Below, in pieces: positions 1 to 5,790 of a stretch of 33,691 bases of DNA. The notes below the pieces were generated by a model. The model did no database searches and was not told where the DNA came from. It worked only from the letters and a program-made list of their open reading frames with translations. Source of the DNA: Alloprevotella sp. (GTDB taxonomy: Bacteria > Bacteroidota > Bacteroidia > Bacteroidales > Bacteroidaceae); contig JAFVDF010000010.1 in assembly GCA_017478625.1 (NCBI GenBank), positions 1 through 33,691 on the forward strand, given 5' to 3'. How positions within the stretch are numbered: position 1 is the stretch's first letter; every line of letters starts with the position of its first letter. Both the position numbers and the translations under genes were made by a program.

Positions 1-567
1 AATGTCGCACTGAAAAAGTTGGAATGCAGTAGTAATGATTTGACTTCGTTGGACGTATCCAAGAATGTGGCGCTGGAAACGTTGTATTGCGCTGGTAATC
101 AGCTGGATTTGTTGGACGTATCCAAGAATGTGGCGCTGGAATATTTGAATTGCCACTTCAATAACTTGACTTCGTTGGACGTATCCAATAATATTAAACT
201 GAAAAGGTTGGATTGCGACCACAATGAGCTGACTTCGTTGGACGTATCCAAGAATGTCGCACTGGAATATCTGGGTTGCACTGGCAATCAGCTTACTTCC
301 TTGGACGTATCCAAGAATGTGGCGTTGAAAGAGTTGGATTGCGAAGACAATCAGCTGACTTCCTTGGACGTATCCAAGAATGTGGCACTGGAATATCTGG
401 ATTGCACAGAGAATCAGCTGACTTCCTTGGACGTATCCAAGAATGTAGCGCTGGAAGAGTTGTATTGCTATTCTAATCAGTTGACTTCATTAATATCTTC
501 TCCTACAGGCGCGCTCGTGCGGGTGAGTTGCTTTAGTAATCAGTTGAGGGGCGCACAGATGGATGCC
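1..567 (+). repeat. 63-bp in-frame tandem repeats of the LRR gene
   Basis: Units begin at 1, 64, 127, 190, 253, 316, 379 and 442, with a degenerate ninth at 505. The segment TTGGACGTATCCAAGAATGT recurs almost unchanged, while the codons for the variable surface positions (after the Leu-x-Cys) differ. Nearly identical spacers around variable positions suggest expansion and contraction by recombination. Confidence 0.9.
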
Positions 568-732
568 TTGATAGCTGGTCTTCCCGTTTTTTTTGATGGA
601 GGTTTTTGGGTAATCGACACAGATGATAGTAGTGAAGGCAACGTGTGCACTGTGGCACAAGTAAATGCGGCCCGCGCAAAGGGATGGCTCGTTTTAGATG
701 TAAATGGAGGATTTAGCTATTCTGGAAGTTAA
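1..732 (+). CDS. Leucine-rich repeat protein, C-terminal part (5' end outside window)
   Basis: The reading frame is open from base 1, so the gene begins left of the window and the true N-terminus and any signal peptide are not seen. The visible 243 residues start with eight near-identical 21-residue leucine-rich repeats of the form NVALxxLxCxxNxLTSLDVSK, plus a ninth degenerate one, each with one Cys. A non-repeat tail of about 55 residues follows, containing a DGGFWVIDTDD stretch and ending in FSYSGS. LRR proteins of this kind in Bacteroidales are usually surface or secreted binding proteins, but the ligand cannot be read from the sequence. No type IX sorting domain is evident at the end. 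The family call is firm; the function is unknown. Confidence 0.85.
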   Translation, partial: NVALKKLECSSNDLTSLDVSKNVALETLYCAGNQLDLLDVSKNVALEYLNCHFNNLTSLDVSNNIKLKRLDCDHNELTSLDVSKNVALEYLGCTGNQLTSLDVSKNVALKELDCEDNQLTSLDVSKNVALEYLDCTENQLTSLDVSKNVALEELYCYSNQLTSLISSPTGALVRVSCFSNQLRGAQMDALIAGLPVFFDGGFWVIDTDDSSEGNVCTVAQVNAARAKGWLVLDVNGGFSYSGS

Positions 733-2372: not shown

Positions 2373-2753
2373 TTATTTTTGTTTTTTATAATACTTTTTT
2401 CGATTATTTACGATGCCTTCTAAATGGGAAGAGGCCCATTCTACTAAGTCATTGAGCAATGGCGTCAGAGAGTGTGCCCGTTCGGTCAGTTCGTATTCTA
2501 CTCTTGGCGGAACTTCAGCATAGGCTTTCCGAATGACAAAGCCATCGGCTTCGAGATCGCGCAAAGTGCGGGTAAGCATCTTTTGGGAAATATCGGGAAT
2601 GGCGTGCTCGATTTCCGTAAACCTCATAGGTTTTTTTGCCAGTTCGAGAGTAAGAAAAATGAGAATACTCCAGCGATCACTAATGCGAGCGATAACGTTG
2701 CGAACAGGACAGTCTGGAAAATGTGAATCTCGGATTTTGTGATTTATTTCCAT
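2373..2753 (-). CDS. HxlR-family transcriptional regulator
   Basis: This 126-residue winged-helix protein has the HxlR signature from end to end: CPVRNVIARISDRWSILI near the N-terminus, the recognition region ISQKMLTRTLRDLEADGFV, and PPRVEYELTERAHSL in the wing. HxlR proteins bind inverted-repeat operators as dimers, and several (the HypR, YodB and QorR type) sense quinones, aldehydes or oxidants through a Cys in the CPV motif. Here that Cys (residue 15) is the only Cys in the protein. The gene is the last of the minus-strand ACGX locus, 3 bases after the stop of the oxidoreductase gene, so it is very likely co-transcribed. A regulator responding to redox or electrophile stress is inferred. 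Confidence 0.9.
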   Translation of the reverse strand: MEINHKIRDSHFPDCPVRNVIARISDRWSILIFLTLELAKKPMRFTEIEHAIPDISQKMLTRTLRDLEADGFVIRKAYAEVPPRVEYELTERAHSLTPLLNDLVEWASSHLEGIVNNRKKYYKKQK

Positions 2754-2756
2754 AGG

Positions 2757-3719
2757 TTAATTGATTTTTAAAATGATTTTTCCGCCTGCACAGCCCTTCT
2801 CCAACAAGGTGTGGGCTTCGCGAATCTGATCAAGCGTAAATACGTGGCTGTAAAGTGGCTGAATCTGTGCCTCGCTGAGGAGTGAAAACAAGCCATCAAT
2901 GGTTTTGCGAGTAGGAAAGTTGGAGAAGAAGCCCGTGAGGAAGACACCGTTAGGAATATACTTGATGGGATCGAAATGCTCAACGGCAAAAATATTGCCT
3001 AGAATACCTGTGTTGCAAACAAAACCAGGCTTGCTGACAGTAAGCAATGAGTCGCGCAAAGTTTTGGGCCCTATGAGCTCCAATATCTTATTTGGGCGAG
3101 GTTGTAGTTGTTGCTTGCTGATATTTTCGTCATCGATGATACAAAAGTCGGCACCGATAGTTTTCAAATTCTCAAAAGAAGATTCATGACGAGACGTGGC
3201 AATGACGGTCGCACCGATAGCCTTTGCCAATTGGATGGCTGCCTGTCCGACGGTACTGGTAGCTCCACGGACAAGGAGTGTATCCTGATTGTTCAATAAC
3301 AGGCTTTCTACGAGTGAACCGTATGCTGTGAAGTAAGTCTCAGGTACGGCAGCCAGCGACAACCAATCAAGTTCCGTGTTTACTTTGAATACGTTTCTAG
3401 CAGGTAGCAAGGCATATTCGGCATAACTACCATTAAACGATCGTCCCATTCCTCCCATCAGTCCTATGACTCGATCACCCACAAGAAGCTCAGAATTATT
3501 GGTTTCAACAATTTCTCCGACACACTCAATACCTGGTACAATGGGTGTATTGATATAGTCGTTGTTGGCTTCAAACATACGAAGTAGGGCTTCCGAATGG
3601 TTAAGCCCTGCGGCATGTATTTTTACAAGAACCCATTCTGGTCGTATCTTAGGAATAGGAATCTCACTCACTTGCAAGTCTTCGGCTTTGCAACACTTCT
3701 CTAATACGATTGCTTTCAT
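2757..3719 (-). CDS. Zinc-free medium-chain alcohol dehydrogenase / quinone oxidoreductase
   Basis: The 320-residue MDR-family NAD(P)H-dependent oxidoreductase opens MKAIVLEKC, has the GroES-like half (VLVKIHAAGLNHSE, VPGIECVGEIVE, GDRVIG) and then a Rossmann half with the nucleotide loop GATSTVGQAAIQLAKAIGA, ending GGKIILKIN. The Cys/His zinc ligands of true alcohol dehydrogenases are not apparent, which points to the quinone-oxidoreductase branch. I start it at 3719: the reading frame continues upstream to 3824, but the family alignment begins at MKAIVLE and the extension would run far into the flavoprotein gene. It lies 4 bases after that gene and 3 before hxlR. Quinone reductases paired with HxlR regulators are a known arrangement; a role in peptide maturation is possible but unproven. 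Confidence 0.85.
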   Translation of the reverse strand: MKAIVLEKCCKAEDLQVSEIPIPKIRPEWVLVKIHAAGLNHSEALLRMFEANNDYINTPIVPGIECVGEIVETNNSELLVGDRVIGLMGGMGRSFNGSYAEYALLPARNVFKVNTELDWLSLAAVPETYFTAYGSLVESLLLNNQDTLLVRGATSTVGQAAIQLAKAIGATVIATSRHESSFENLKTIGADFCIIDDENISKQQLQPRPNKILELIGPKTLRDSLLTVSKPGFVCNTGILGNIFAVEHFDPIKYIPNGVFLTGFFSNFPTRKTIDGLFSLLSEAQIQPLYSHVFTLDQIREAHTLLEKGCAGGKIILKIN

Positions 3720-3723
3720 ACGC

Positions 3724-4338
3724 TTAATCAAATCTGATGATGGCATCCGCTGGACAATTCTCAAAACAGTTGCCGCAATGAAGACAATGCTCCGCCTGGA
3801 TACGATAGGGTTTGCCCTCCTCAATACAACCTTGCGGACAATTAGCTAGGCATGTACCACAGCCGATGCATTGCTCGGTAATCTCGAAGCCTTTGCATTC
3901 AGGCTCTGCATCGCCCATCGTGAAGTAGGCGCGGTCGATAGGCCGTACACTGAGATTGAAGTATTCTATTTGGGCATCGCGGATGACAAAGATGATTCCA
4001 ATGGAGCGAGTGTCGTCAGGATAGACATTTACCAGATAAGGTTGTTCCTCGAAGATGACATCCTTCCAGTGCTTTTGCTCATCGTCGGGCACGGGCTTTG
4101 CCACAGCTGACAGGCGAATCATCTCCTTGAACTTCGTCAGCGCATGAATCTGAACGTGTCCGTCGTCCATCAACTGCTGGCAGAAATTCTTTCCGCGAGC
4201 CGTATAGAAATAGATAGCATCCGGCTCGTAGTGAATAGCCGAGATGCTCCGGGTCTGAGGATGGCCGTGCTTATCTACAGTGGCGAATGTCAGAATGCCG
4301 ACATAGCCGAGTTTCTTGATACAGGTTTCTGCGTCCAT
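3724..4338 (-). CDS. FMN split-barrel (PNPOx-like) protein fused to a 2x[4Fe-4S] ferredoxin
   Basis: This 204-residue protein has two parts. Residues about 1-135 look like a pyridoxamine-phosphate-oxidase-type flavin split barrel (GILTFATVDKHGHPQTRSISAIHY, then AIYFYTARGKNFCQQL). Residues about 148-204 form a bacterial ferredoxin with two clusters, CIGCGTCLANCPQGC and CLHCGNCFENC. The fusion suggests electron transfer between a flavin and iron-sulphur clusters, plausibly to or from the neighbouring radical SAM enzyme, which needs low-potential electrons. Its start at 4338 lies inside the end of the radical SAM gene (49-base overlap), which indicates translational coupling. The substrate is unknown. 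Confidence 0.85.
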   Translation of the reverse strand: MDAETCIKKLGYVGILTFATVDKHGHPQTRSISAIHYEPDAIYFYTARGKNFCQQLMDDGHVQIHALTKFKEMIRLSAVAKPVPDDEQKHWKDVIFEEQPYLVNVYPDDTRSIGIIFVIRDAQIEYFNLSVRPIDRAYFTMGDAEPECKGFEITEQCIGCGTCLANCPQGCIEEGKPYRIQAEHCLHCGNCFENCPADAIIRFD

Positions 4339-5378
4339 GACGATTCATTTTTCACTTCCTTCCAGCACTGTGGATCTGGTGCATAGAAGTTTTTGGTGTA
4401 TCCGTATGCTACGGCAGGACATCCACGACAGAAACGAAGTAGCTCACACTTCTGGCACTTCTCGAAATTTTCGTGTTGGCGATACTTTTTCATATGTATT
4501 CCGTGGAAAACATCATACATTTCTTCATCAATTGTGCCGACATAGCTTGTAAAACGGCGACAAGCCATCAAGCGACCTTCGGCAGAAATCGTGAAGTGGC
4601 AGTTGCCACAGTTGCAGCCGTCATAGATAGTGTCCTCGTCGAGCCCGTCGGGAATCTTAAAGAGTCCCTTCTCGTAGAGGAAGAGTGTCCAGAGGTGATC
4701 CTTTAAATTAAATGTAGTGTTTGAGTCCTTGTATAATTCAAACTTAGCCCAACATTTGTCTAGAAACTCACGATAACGTTTGGGTTCGATATGCCATGTA
4801 TCTTTGTATGCCTTATCCTCGCTTGTTGGGCAGTAGCGTCCAAAAGCAAAAATATCTACATTGTGTTCTACAAGGATATCAATCAACTGTGGAATCTCAT
4901 CGATGTTCATAGCAGAGATAGTTGACATGACTGCACAATGTAGCCCACTATGACGTATTGTATCAATCGCCTGTAGAGTGGAATCAAATGAACCAGATTT
5001 GCGAAAACGGTCATGTGTTTCTCGCAGTCCGTCAAGCGAGAGTTGGTATTTCCGGCATCCTAGTGCTTTCAATCGAAAGCAGACTTCATCAGTCAAGTGG
5101 AACGGGTTACCCATAATGGTAAAAGGAATGCCTTTAGAGTGTATGAGATCCAGAAAACGCCAAAAGCAACTGTGTAAAATTGGATCTCCCCCCGTAATAT
5201 AAAGGTAAGGTAGCCGTTGCATCCTTATAGCCATTCGTTCAATGTTTGCAAGCACTGCTACCAGTTTCTCCCAAGGCATTTCTATTAGTTTCGGATGCCC
5301 TTCGGAAAAAATGTAGCAGTGCTTGCAACGCTGGTCACACTCGTCAGTGATATGCCACTGAAATGCGAAATAGTCCAA
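4290..5378 (-). CDS. Radical SAM/SPASM maturase of the ACGX-peptide system
   Basis: The 362-residue protein starts with the radical SAM cluster motif CDQRCKHC (Cys14, 18, 21) in the context WHITDEC, followed by the SAM-binding YITGGDP. The C-terminal third is a SPASM region rich in Cys (CNCGNC, then MACRR, CQKCELLRFCRGC, DPQCW) that should hold auxiliary [4Fe-4S] clusters. The gene lies 29 bases after the small ACGX-repeat peptide, and together they match the maturase/precursor pair called the ACGX system in the radical-SAM peptide classification. The chemistry (thioether, epimerisation or other) is not known to me. No ATG is available: the frame from the preceding stop allows TTG at 5378 or ATT at 5387 (giving KALDYFAFQ). 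The last 16 codons overlap the next gene. Confidence 0.9.
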   Translation of the reverse strand: MDYFAFQWHITDECDQRCKHCYIFSEGHPKLIEMPWEKLVAVLANIERMAIRMQRLPYLYITGGDPILHSCFWRFLDLIHSKGIPFTIMGNPFHLTDEVCFRLKALGCRKYQLSLDGLRETHDRFRKSGSFDSTLQAIDTIRHSGLHCAVMSTISAMNIDEIPQLIDILVEHNVDIFAFGRYCPTSEDKAYKDTWHIEPKRYREFLDKCWAKFELYKDSNTTFNLKDHLWTLFLYEKGLFKIPDGLDEDTIYDGCNCGNCHFTISAEGRLMACRRFTSYVGTIDEEMYDVFHGIHMKKYRQHENFEKCQKCELLRFCRGCPAVAYGYTKNFYAPDPQCWKEVKNESSWTQKPVSRNSAMSAF

Positions 5379-5407
5379 GGCCTTAATCTTTCTACTTTAA
5401 GCCCCGC

Positions 5408-5605
5408 TTATTTTTCACCAGCACCACATGCTGTACCGCACGCGGCAGGTTTTTCTCCTGCACCGCATGCTGAGCCACAAGCAACGGGTTTCTCTTCGAT
5501 AGGCTTGTCGCTACTGCCACAGGAAGCGCCACAAGCTGCAGGTTTATCACTCAATTTCATTACGCCTTGTGCACTGTGCGTGAAGTTCAAATCAATTCTC
5601 TTCAT
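5408..5605 (-). CDS. ACGX-repeat peptide, RiPP precursor
   Basis: A 65-residue peptide with a short leader (MKRIDLNFTHSAQGVMKLSDKP) and a repetitive Cys/Gly/Ala core. The core holds three ACGxxCG modules (ACGASCG, ACGSACG, ACGTACG) separated by charged Lys-Pro linkers such as EEKPV and AGEKPA. The six Cys are at residues 25, 29, 43, 47, 56 and 60, always as C-x3-C pairs, which is the expected target for a radical SAM/SPASM enzyme. The maturase gene follows directly. No signal peptide and no transporter or protease gene are seen nearby, so the mature product may stay inside or use an unlinked exporter. It is the first gene of the operon, behind a strong promoter. Confidence 0.9.
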   Translation of the reverse strand: MKRIDLNFTHSAQGVMKLSDKPAACGASCGSSDKPIEEKPVACGSACGAGEKPAACGTACGAGEK

Positions 5606-5636
5606 TGTCGTATAATAAAAAAGTGGAACAATAATA

Positions 5637-5655
5637 GTTACGATTTGTCCGTAAC
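5637..5655. promoter_or_regulatory. Inverted repeat at the ACGX transcription start, candidate operator
   Basis: GTTACG (5637-5642) and CGTAAC (5650-5655) form a perfect 6-bp inverted repeat with a 7-base spacer. It lies just downstream of the -7 element on the minus strand, where a repressor would block initiation. The operon encodes an HxlR-type dimeric regulator, so autoregulation is inferred. Confidence 0.45.
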
Positions 5656-5660
5656 GACAA

Positions 5661-5668
5661 CAAAGATA
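5661..5668 (-). promoter_or_regulatory. Promoter -7 element of the ACGX operon
   Basis: TATCTTTG on the minus strand is an exact match to the Bacteroidetes -7 consensus TAnnTTTG, 56 bases before the peptide start codon. The upstream -33 position has TTT instead of TTG. Confidence 0.65.
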
Positions 5669-5790
5669 TAATCTTCTACGGATAATAAAAAGACTTATAC
5701 TGTTTTTTCGCGCGCTAAATTTTTAGAAGTGATATGTTTGGATGTTAGTCCTTGAATAAGATGAAAAAGCCAATTTCTGTTTTGGAGCAG

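Follow-up and report, generated by a model that had tools for sequence, protein, structure and literature searches.

What would a ribosomally made and enzymatically modified peptide (RiPP) of the ACGX type do in a cell, when its gene is followed by redox enzymes and a regulator? We address this question for a locus of Alloprevotella sp. (assembly GCA_017478625.1, contig JAFVDF010000010.1); by the window we mean the whole stretch of 33,691 nucleotides that was analysed. All five genes are present on its minus strand as one operon, in the order precursor, radical SAM/SPASM maturase, flavin split-barrel/ferredoxin fusion (FlavFd), NAD(P)H quinone-oxidoreductase homologue (QOR) and HxlR regulator (Table 1), the first two genes being 29 bases apart, the second and third overlapping by 49 bases, and the last two intervals measuring 4 and 3 bases. 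The original prediction had described such a single-strand run with short gaps and an overlap around an ACGX precursor/maturase pair, and the sequence confirms it: precursor, maturase and HxlR all score above their cut-offs, the pair with both TIGR04341 and TIGR04340.

The explanation that we tentatively place first is an electrophile or oxidant response operon, switched by HxlR, which would make a cytoplasmic, PapB-like cross-linked peptide. A regulator from a thiol-sensing family, half-sites at the promoter and a two-electron reductase suggest an intracellular response to thiol-reactive compounds, as does a Cys-rich peptide without a GG or GA leader end and without a recognised exporter or protease. 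A stress-regulated, cytoplasmic function had been proposed before in preference to a secreted toxin, and it is the one favoured here.

HxlR linkage and promoter half-sites

Relatives were collected by scanning species genomes with an alignment of five maturases, which gave at least 582 stretches, and the best 80 (L051-L130) were kept. It should be noted that counts over these 80 loci describe the best of at least 582 and not a random sample, and that related rows are not independent. The loci are mostly from Bacteroidota, together with Bacillota, a Treponema, a Planctomycetota bin and a Methanobrevibacter, and nearly all are metagenome bins. For the neighbourhood comparison (n = 87) we added two IMG/VR loci, four genomes of the order (L002, L003, L005 and L006) and the window.

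An HxlR gene was found within 2.5 kb in 62 of the 80 loci, and in 39 of the 42 whose flanks extend 2.5 kb or more in both directions; two of the three well-flanked loci with none in range carry one about 4 kb away. Within 1.5 kb the gene is present in 34 of 42 fully flanked loci, as against 0 of 43 other radical-SAM loci whose flanks were about 1.5 kb or less, and the distant background amounts to three HxlR genes in 414 kb lying beyond 3.5 kb from the loci. The gene stands upstream on the opposite strand in 37 loci, downstream in 17 and upstream on the same strand in 8. HxlR belongs to most ACGX operons.

All 66 nearby HxlR proteins with a letter in the relevant alignment column have an N-terminal Cys there. 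In the window this residue is Cys15, which aligns with the Cys at chain position 14 of YybR (4a5m), a protein that we take to be HypR. According to the available excerpt of the source, the redox-sensing Cys14 of HypR is S-thioallylated, and HypR, YodB and CatR sense HOCl, quinones and diamide by a conserved N-terminal Cys (PMC6943732). The window regulator is probably of this thiol-sensing kind, and may detect electrophiles or oxidants through its N-terminal Cys.

The palindrome GTTAC-N9-GTAAC stands directly after a promoter-like TATATCTTTG in the window. This box agrees with the Bacteroidetes -7 element (consensus TAnnTTTG), and a similar box lies just ahead of the half-sites in close relatives (e.g. 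L053, L055, L057 and L061). We counted GTTAC and GTAAC in 200 bases of upstream sequence and compared the counts with the mean of 200 shuffles. Where HxlR is the last gene, half-sites accumulate upstream of the precursor (34 vs 8.1 in 19 regions) and not upstream of HxlR (3 vs 4.6 in 20 regions), while operons that begin with HxlR have 25 vs 3.0 upstream of HxlR and 2 vs 1.8 upstream of the precursor (9 regions). With a divergent HxlR, the precursor is again preceded by an excess of half-sites (47 vs 13.0 in 36 regions). No enrichment was detected in loci without HxlR nearby (4 vs 4.3 in 10 regions) or in 150 far control regions (40 vs 33.6). The half-sites follow the gene order to the promoter heading the operon, which is better evidence than the counts of whole patterns given below, and together with the linkage of the loci they tie HxlR to the peptide operon as had been predicted.

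The strict pattern GTTAC-N9-GT[AG]AC precedes 8 of 76 precursors, among them that of the window (0.1 expected). A looser half-site pair precedes 16 (0.4 expected), an everted pattern two (0.2 expected) and a GTGC form two (0.0 expected); these patterns were chosen after inspection of the upstream regions, and as the sequences are related the tests are not independent. In the 1.26 Mb genome GTTACN{8,10}GTAAC is found in one place. We rejected this uniqueness as a sign of enrichment, as the reversed control pattern has 6 matches there.

Precursor modules and maturase

The window precursor has 65 residues and three modules, ACGASCG, ACGSACG and ACGTACG, and the residues at +4 from the Cys that ends each module are D, E and E, so that Cys-X3-Asp/Glu is found in 3/3 modules. 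To see how general this is we used the 76 of the 87 loci that gave a precursor (74 distinct); ten gave no candidate, and L126 was excluded by hand because the frame picked there is no ACGX peptide. A module-ending Cys was defined as the later one in a Cys-X3-Cys pair or one that stands alone, and the 74 precursors hold 231 of them (2-9 modules per precursor), the Cys being a lone one in 52.

Eight of these Cys lie too near the chain end, and among the remaining 223 an Asp or Glu stands at +4 in 201, compared with 6% at +3, 19% at +5 and at most 50% at other offsets up to +12. Precursors were selected for at least three CG, hence Gly at +1 is a product of the selection, while the acid at +4 was not selected for. 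After thinning to 28 precursors below 70% identity the acid is still present in 79 of 95 modules. It was also found in 34/34 modules of nine genomes from the phylum of L113 (Bacillota), four of them contributed by L113 itself; the 30/30 of the other eight genomes lie outside the discovery set, and the maturases of these genomes share no more than 72% identity with those used before. In the Methanobrevibacter precursor (L127) the acid is Asp at +3 in 9/9 units, and in a Methanosphaera plasmid precursor (L146) Glu at +3 in 7/7 units; with +3 and +4 taken together, 212 of the 223 modules have an acid. The ACGX repeat conceals a Cys-acid code, as read from the precursor sequences.

In the excerpt available, PapB is reported to form thioether rings in Cys-X3-Asp/Glu and to tolerate Cys-Xn-Asp with n of 0-6 (PMC9413430). 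By analogy, PapB-like thioether chemistry may act on the ACGX modules. The cores contain 12.4% Cys, and 72 of 74 have no aromatic residue, His or Met, which leaves mainly Cys and acid side chains for chemistry. For the same reason we ruled out a quinone cofactor made from the peptide in the manner of PQQ or mycofactocin. None of the 74 leaders ends in GG or GA.

The maturase starts with TTG, in agreement with the start of aligned relatives, and carries its CX3CX2C motif as CDQRCKHC. Ten Cys (C14, C18, C21, C255, C273, C308, C311, C317, C320 and C338) are invariant in 45 maturase sequences. The last seven of these follow the seven-Cys pattern of SPASM domains, with a last spacing of CX2C rather than CX3C, and the Pfam SPASM score of 19.5 bits falls just below the cut-off of 21.5. 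The maturase frame outruns four aligned relatives by about 20 residues and extends into the FlavFd gene (4290-4338), and the 49-base overlap goes with this overrun. In another genome of the window's family a maturase-like stretch (G258:C3:112459-112740) scores 65.9 bits over positions 1-94 and has two internal stop codons.

Reductases and the role of the peptide

The maturase is sporadic. It exceeds the cut-off in 5 of 393 genomes of the order, the window's own included, in 9 of 398 genomes of the phylum of L113, including L113, and within the genus in 1 of 58 genomes, which is the window's own; one more in the genus is cut by a contig end and falls below the cut-off. Oxidoreductase, flavoprotein and HxlR genes do accompany the pair in many genomes, as expected from the original prediction, but the five genes are not a conserved unit: the exact set recurs in four of the 80 loci (L051, L071, L095 and L127) besides the window, some contigs ending too early for a decision. 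The general unit is peptide, maturase and one reductase, either QOR or a nitroreductase, mostly with HxlR.

Operons of this kind are found in several bacterial phyla and also in archaea. A plasmid of Roseburia sp. 831b carries a divergent HxlR, acgA, acgM, a nitroreductase and a FlavFd-type protein, along with a protein-ADP-ribose hydrolase, Sir2 and DUF1848, and a plasmid of Methanosphaera sp. ISO3-F5 a divergent HxlR, a Cys-Gly peptide, a maturase whose annotation is split in two, a zinc-binding dehydrogenase and a 4Fe-4S protein. A 24 kb IMG/VR contig (L131) holds a precursor, maturase, monooxygenase, nitroreductase and HxlR. Phage or plasmid cargo was rejected as a general description of the system, with no phage record at E 1e-40, four plasmid records at E 1e-60 (one plasmid appearing there in two versions) and two confirmed IMG/VR loci.

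Nearly every operon holds one of the two reductases and rarely both. Among the 69 loci whose downstream sequence exceeds 1.2 kb, 65 have QOR or a nitroreductase within 4 kb; some of these also have FlavFd, and none has FlavFd alone. Within 1.5 kb one of them is present in 71 of 80 ACGX loci versus 2 of 21 other Bacteroidales HxlR loci (60 genomes, flanks of about 1.5 kb, HxlR matches at E 1e-18 or better, the window's HxlR excluded), and we therefore rejected these enzymes as ordinary HxlR neighbours. QOR itself was found in 43 of the 80 loci. Among the 84 rows of a maturase tree 45 have QOR, 30 a nitroreductase, two both and seven neither, a mutual exclusion with a Fisher p-value of 7e-14 that is inflated by relatedness. 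The nine genomes of the L113 phylum have exactly one reductase each (QOR in three, nitroreductase in six), a spurious second frame in L143 being disregarded. Across 198 genomes of the order, a QOR relative reaching E 1e-40 turned up in only one genome besides that of the window; it is 40% identical, and no ACGX gene was found in the 2.8 kb inspected there. Of six maturase-bearing genomes four have QOR at 71-100% identity and one has none, while the sixth, whose operon is cut by a contig end, has only a 31% match elsewhere. In L130 a single frame (1586-2545) begins like a nitroreductase and continues like FlavFd; it may be a genuine fusion or an error of assembly.

The main rival explanation, which we regard as unlikely, is that the reductases act on the peptide. 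The maturase would then make an unsaturated or oxidised residue for QOR or the nitroreductase to reduce, much as the dehydrogenase-like LanJA and the flavin-dependent LanJB reduce residues of lanthipeptides. This would account for the presence, at nearly all loci, of one or the other of two unrelated enzymes, for the rarity of either beside other HxlR genes and for the near-confinement of close QOR relatives within the order to the window. It would also account for the repeated switching between QOR and nitroreductase: 15 exchanges are needed on the quick maturase tree when rows carrying both or neither are set aside, and its strongly supported branches by themselves require 10 changes in the QOR label and 9 in the nitroreductase label. 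The labels nonetheless fall into clusters on this tree (0 of 500 shuffles reached so low a number), the seven rows with neither enzyme, some cut by contig ends, are left over, and PapB-type thioether formation leaves nothing to reduce. Further, detoxification of quinones and other electrophiles predicts the same enzyme pair; in the excerpt cited above the nitroreductase YodC is given a role in quinone and diamide detoxification (PMC6943732).

The original prediction had NAD(P)H, flavoprotein and ferredoxin feeding low-potential electrons to the maturase, which we now hold to be improbable. FlavFd does unite a flavin-type domain (structural neighbours 2hhz and the NimC/NimA-family 2ig6) with two [4Fe-4S] sites, and the excerpt available describes activation of MiaB through ferredoxin and of PapB with FMN/NADPH (PMC10470005). 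This carrier is optional, however, being present in 16 of the 80 loci and in five of the nine in the L113-phylum set, and thus the idea fails as a general explanation. The domain search of QOR gave zinc-ADH-type (MDR) domains only and no flavin or Fe-S domain, its closest solved relative is the quinone oxidoreductase 4dup (E 3.3e-27), and it is exchanged for a nitroreductase elsewhere. On these grounds the electron-supply chain was rejected as the general accessory role.

Similarly improbable is a metal-binding peptide, with Cys modules that would hold Zn, Cu or Fe-S in an operon answering metal or thiol stress. The Cys content of the cores and the C-X3-C spacing are in its favour; lone Cys modules are not, unmodified Cys would suffice without a radical SAM enzyme, and no metal pump or chaperone was recognised in the recurring gene clusters, judged partly by eye. 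The claim that exporter and protease are lacking holds for the window operon, and for the relatives to the extent that none was recognised in clusters shared by at least three of the 87 loci, several of these being judged by eye and single non-recurring transporters escaping such a comparison. One cluster (c17, three loci) looks by eye like a sodium symporter. A secreted antimicrobial or signal peptide is highly improbable: several peptides modified by radical SAM enzymes are antimicrobial and the number of modules varies, but the leaders lack GG or GA ends, the operon is linked to HxlR and reductases, and no exporter, leader peptidase or immunity gene was recognised in the recurring clusters, again partly by eye.

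The HxlR-switched stress operon could work as follows. HxlR would bind the GTTAC/GTAAC palindrome at the promoter heading the operon, and a thiol-reactive compound might modify its N-terminal Cys and thereby change transcription. The output would be a small, soluble, Cys-rich peptide, its radical SAM enzyme and one NAD(P)H-type two-electron reductase. As in PapB, the maturase would most likely form a thioether between the second Cys of a module and the acid at +4, perhaps leaving the first of the two Cys as a free or otherwise modified thiol. The peptide may then remain cytoplasmic and act as a thiol/thioether buffer or carrier under the stress that the reductase relieves.

Besides the selection of loci and operator patterns described above, a number of observations weigh against this explanation. 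HxlR-type regulators can be repressors or activators. No HxlR is in range in 18 of the 80 loci, 15 of which are short-flanked, and in the evenly drawn nine genomes of the L113 phylum one lies within 1.5 kb in only five and within 2.5 kb in six, counting L113; with wider flanks two more appear about 4 to 5 kb off, and L172 has none within about 5 kb. The L006 maturase exceeds the cut-off at 485 bits, yet no precursor, HxlR or reductase lies within about 1.5 kb. With the PapB family model NF047865 the window maturase scores 57.3 bits, far below the cut-off of 340. The acid at +4 is missing from 22 of the 223 modules, nine of them in L127, the cultured Roseburia has it in two of three modules, and a paired module offers two Cys for one conserved acid, which leaves the first Cys unexplained. 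The Roseburia operon has an MFS transporter gene upstream, on the far side of HxlR and two more genes.

Other recurrent neighbours, with family domains assigned from examples, are a YgiN-type monooxygenase (9 of the 80 loci), a SirTM-like sirtuin (12), a macrodomain protein (5), DUF1848 (6) and a tautomerase (3, by eye). Sirtuin and macrodomain genes occur together in ACGX loci at L063 10673-12308, L145 8319-9969 and L170 1760-3383. A wider proposal, which we consider rather doubtful, is that ACGX peptides are a thiol/thioether stress buffer common to several bacterial phyla and methanogen archaea. HxlR, as the sensor, would induce a ranthipeptide with several Cys-Asp/Glu rings, and the thiols left over would capture quinones or aldehydes within the cell. 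An exchangeable NAD(P)H reductase would serve or regenerate the peptide, and in some operons the SirTM/Zn-macrodomain pair might ADP-ribosylate the peptide or its partners.

Table 1. Features of the ACGX operon in the window
Feature	Position	Strand	Support
ACGX-repeat precursor peptide (acgA type)	5408..5605	-	TIGR04341 50.3 bits, cut-off 28
Radical SAM/SPASM maturase (acgM type)	4290..5378	-	TIGR04340 542.3 bits, cut-off 400
Flavin split-barrel + 2x[4Fe-4S] ferredoxin fusion (FlavFd), optional accessory	3724..4338	-	PNPOx_N and Fer4 above cut-offs
NAD(P)H quinone-oxidoreductase homologue (QOR), MDR superfamily	2757..3719	-	ADH_N, ADH_zinc_N
HxlR/DUF24 regulator, Cys15 as putative thiol sensor	2373..2753	-	PF01638 100.1 bits, cut-off 20.8
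Candidate HxlR operator GTTAC-N9-GTAAC	5637..5655	.	Perfect inverted repeat
Promoter-like TATATCTTTG	5661..5670	-	Sequence; similar box in close relatives

Outside the operon, a leucine-rich-repeat-like frame with repeats of the type NQLTSLDVSKNVALEYLDC is found at the start of the window (19-732).

Comparison with known systems

RiPPs have mostly been studied as secreted antibiotics or cofactors, and a widespread RiPP within a thiol-stress operon would, if true, be a new and directly testable physiological role. The operator is visible, the Cys-acid code is simple and turns the vague ACGX repeat into a specific prediction for mass spectrometry, and named host strains exist (Roseburia sp. 831b and Methanosphaera sp. 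ISO3-F5). In the literature searched, outside which most subscription papers lie, we found neither a product or function for ACGX, TIGR04340 or TIGR04341 nor the combination of HxlR, radical SAM enzyme and RiPP. The pair is already catalogued and named, while within the reach of those searches we found no description of the regulator, the half-sites, the choice of reductase or the Cys-acid code.

The closest system is ACGX itself (TIGR04340/TIGR04341, RefSeq acgM/acgA). The window pair passes both curated cut-offs, and the Roseburia plasmid holds the named pair with HxlR, nitroreductase and FlavFd-type protein. The models cover the pair only; regulator, operator, reductase choice and Cys-acid code fall outside them. 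The PapB/PapA ranthipeptide system (freyrasin) likewise combines Cys-X3-Asp/Glu repeats with a radical SAM enzyme that has auxiliary clusters. The window maturase falls outside the PapB sequence family, the modules here are mostly paired-Cys ones in an HxlR and reductase operon, and the thioether is a predicted one. SbtM, a maturase that makes thio- or seleno-oxazoles, is the second-best NCBIfam match of the window maturase (TIGR04082, 169.2 bits), below the cut-off of 350.

Some ACGX loci further resemble the SirTM/Zn-macrodomain ADP-ribosylation operons through the sirtuin and macrodomain genes counted above. The L063 sirtuin matches 5a3a, a SIR2 family protein (5.8e-37), and the L063 macrodomain protein is a protein-ADP-ribose hydrolase by NF003163 (335 bits, cut-off 272). 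These genes are absent from the window operon, and no lipoylation genes (GcvH-L, LplA) are annotated beside the pair in L145. For SirTM and macrodomain, targets outside the extended operon are reported as unknown in the available excerpt of the source (PMC11490716).

The thiol-stress regulons of YodB, CatR and HypR (DUF24) in Bacillus share with the ACGX operons an HxlR-type regulator with an N-terminal Cys; to our knowledge they contain no RiPP. As in many ACGX operons, a nitroreductase is among the genes that they control, according to the excerpt available (PMC6943732).

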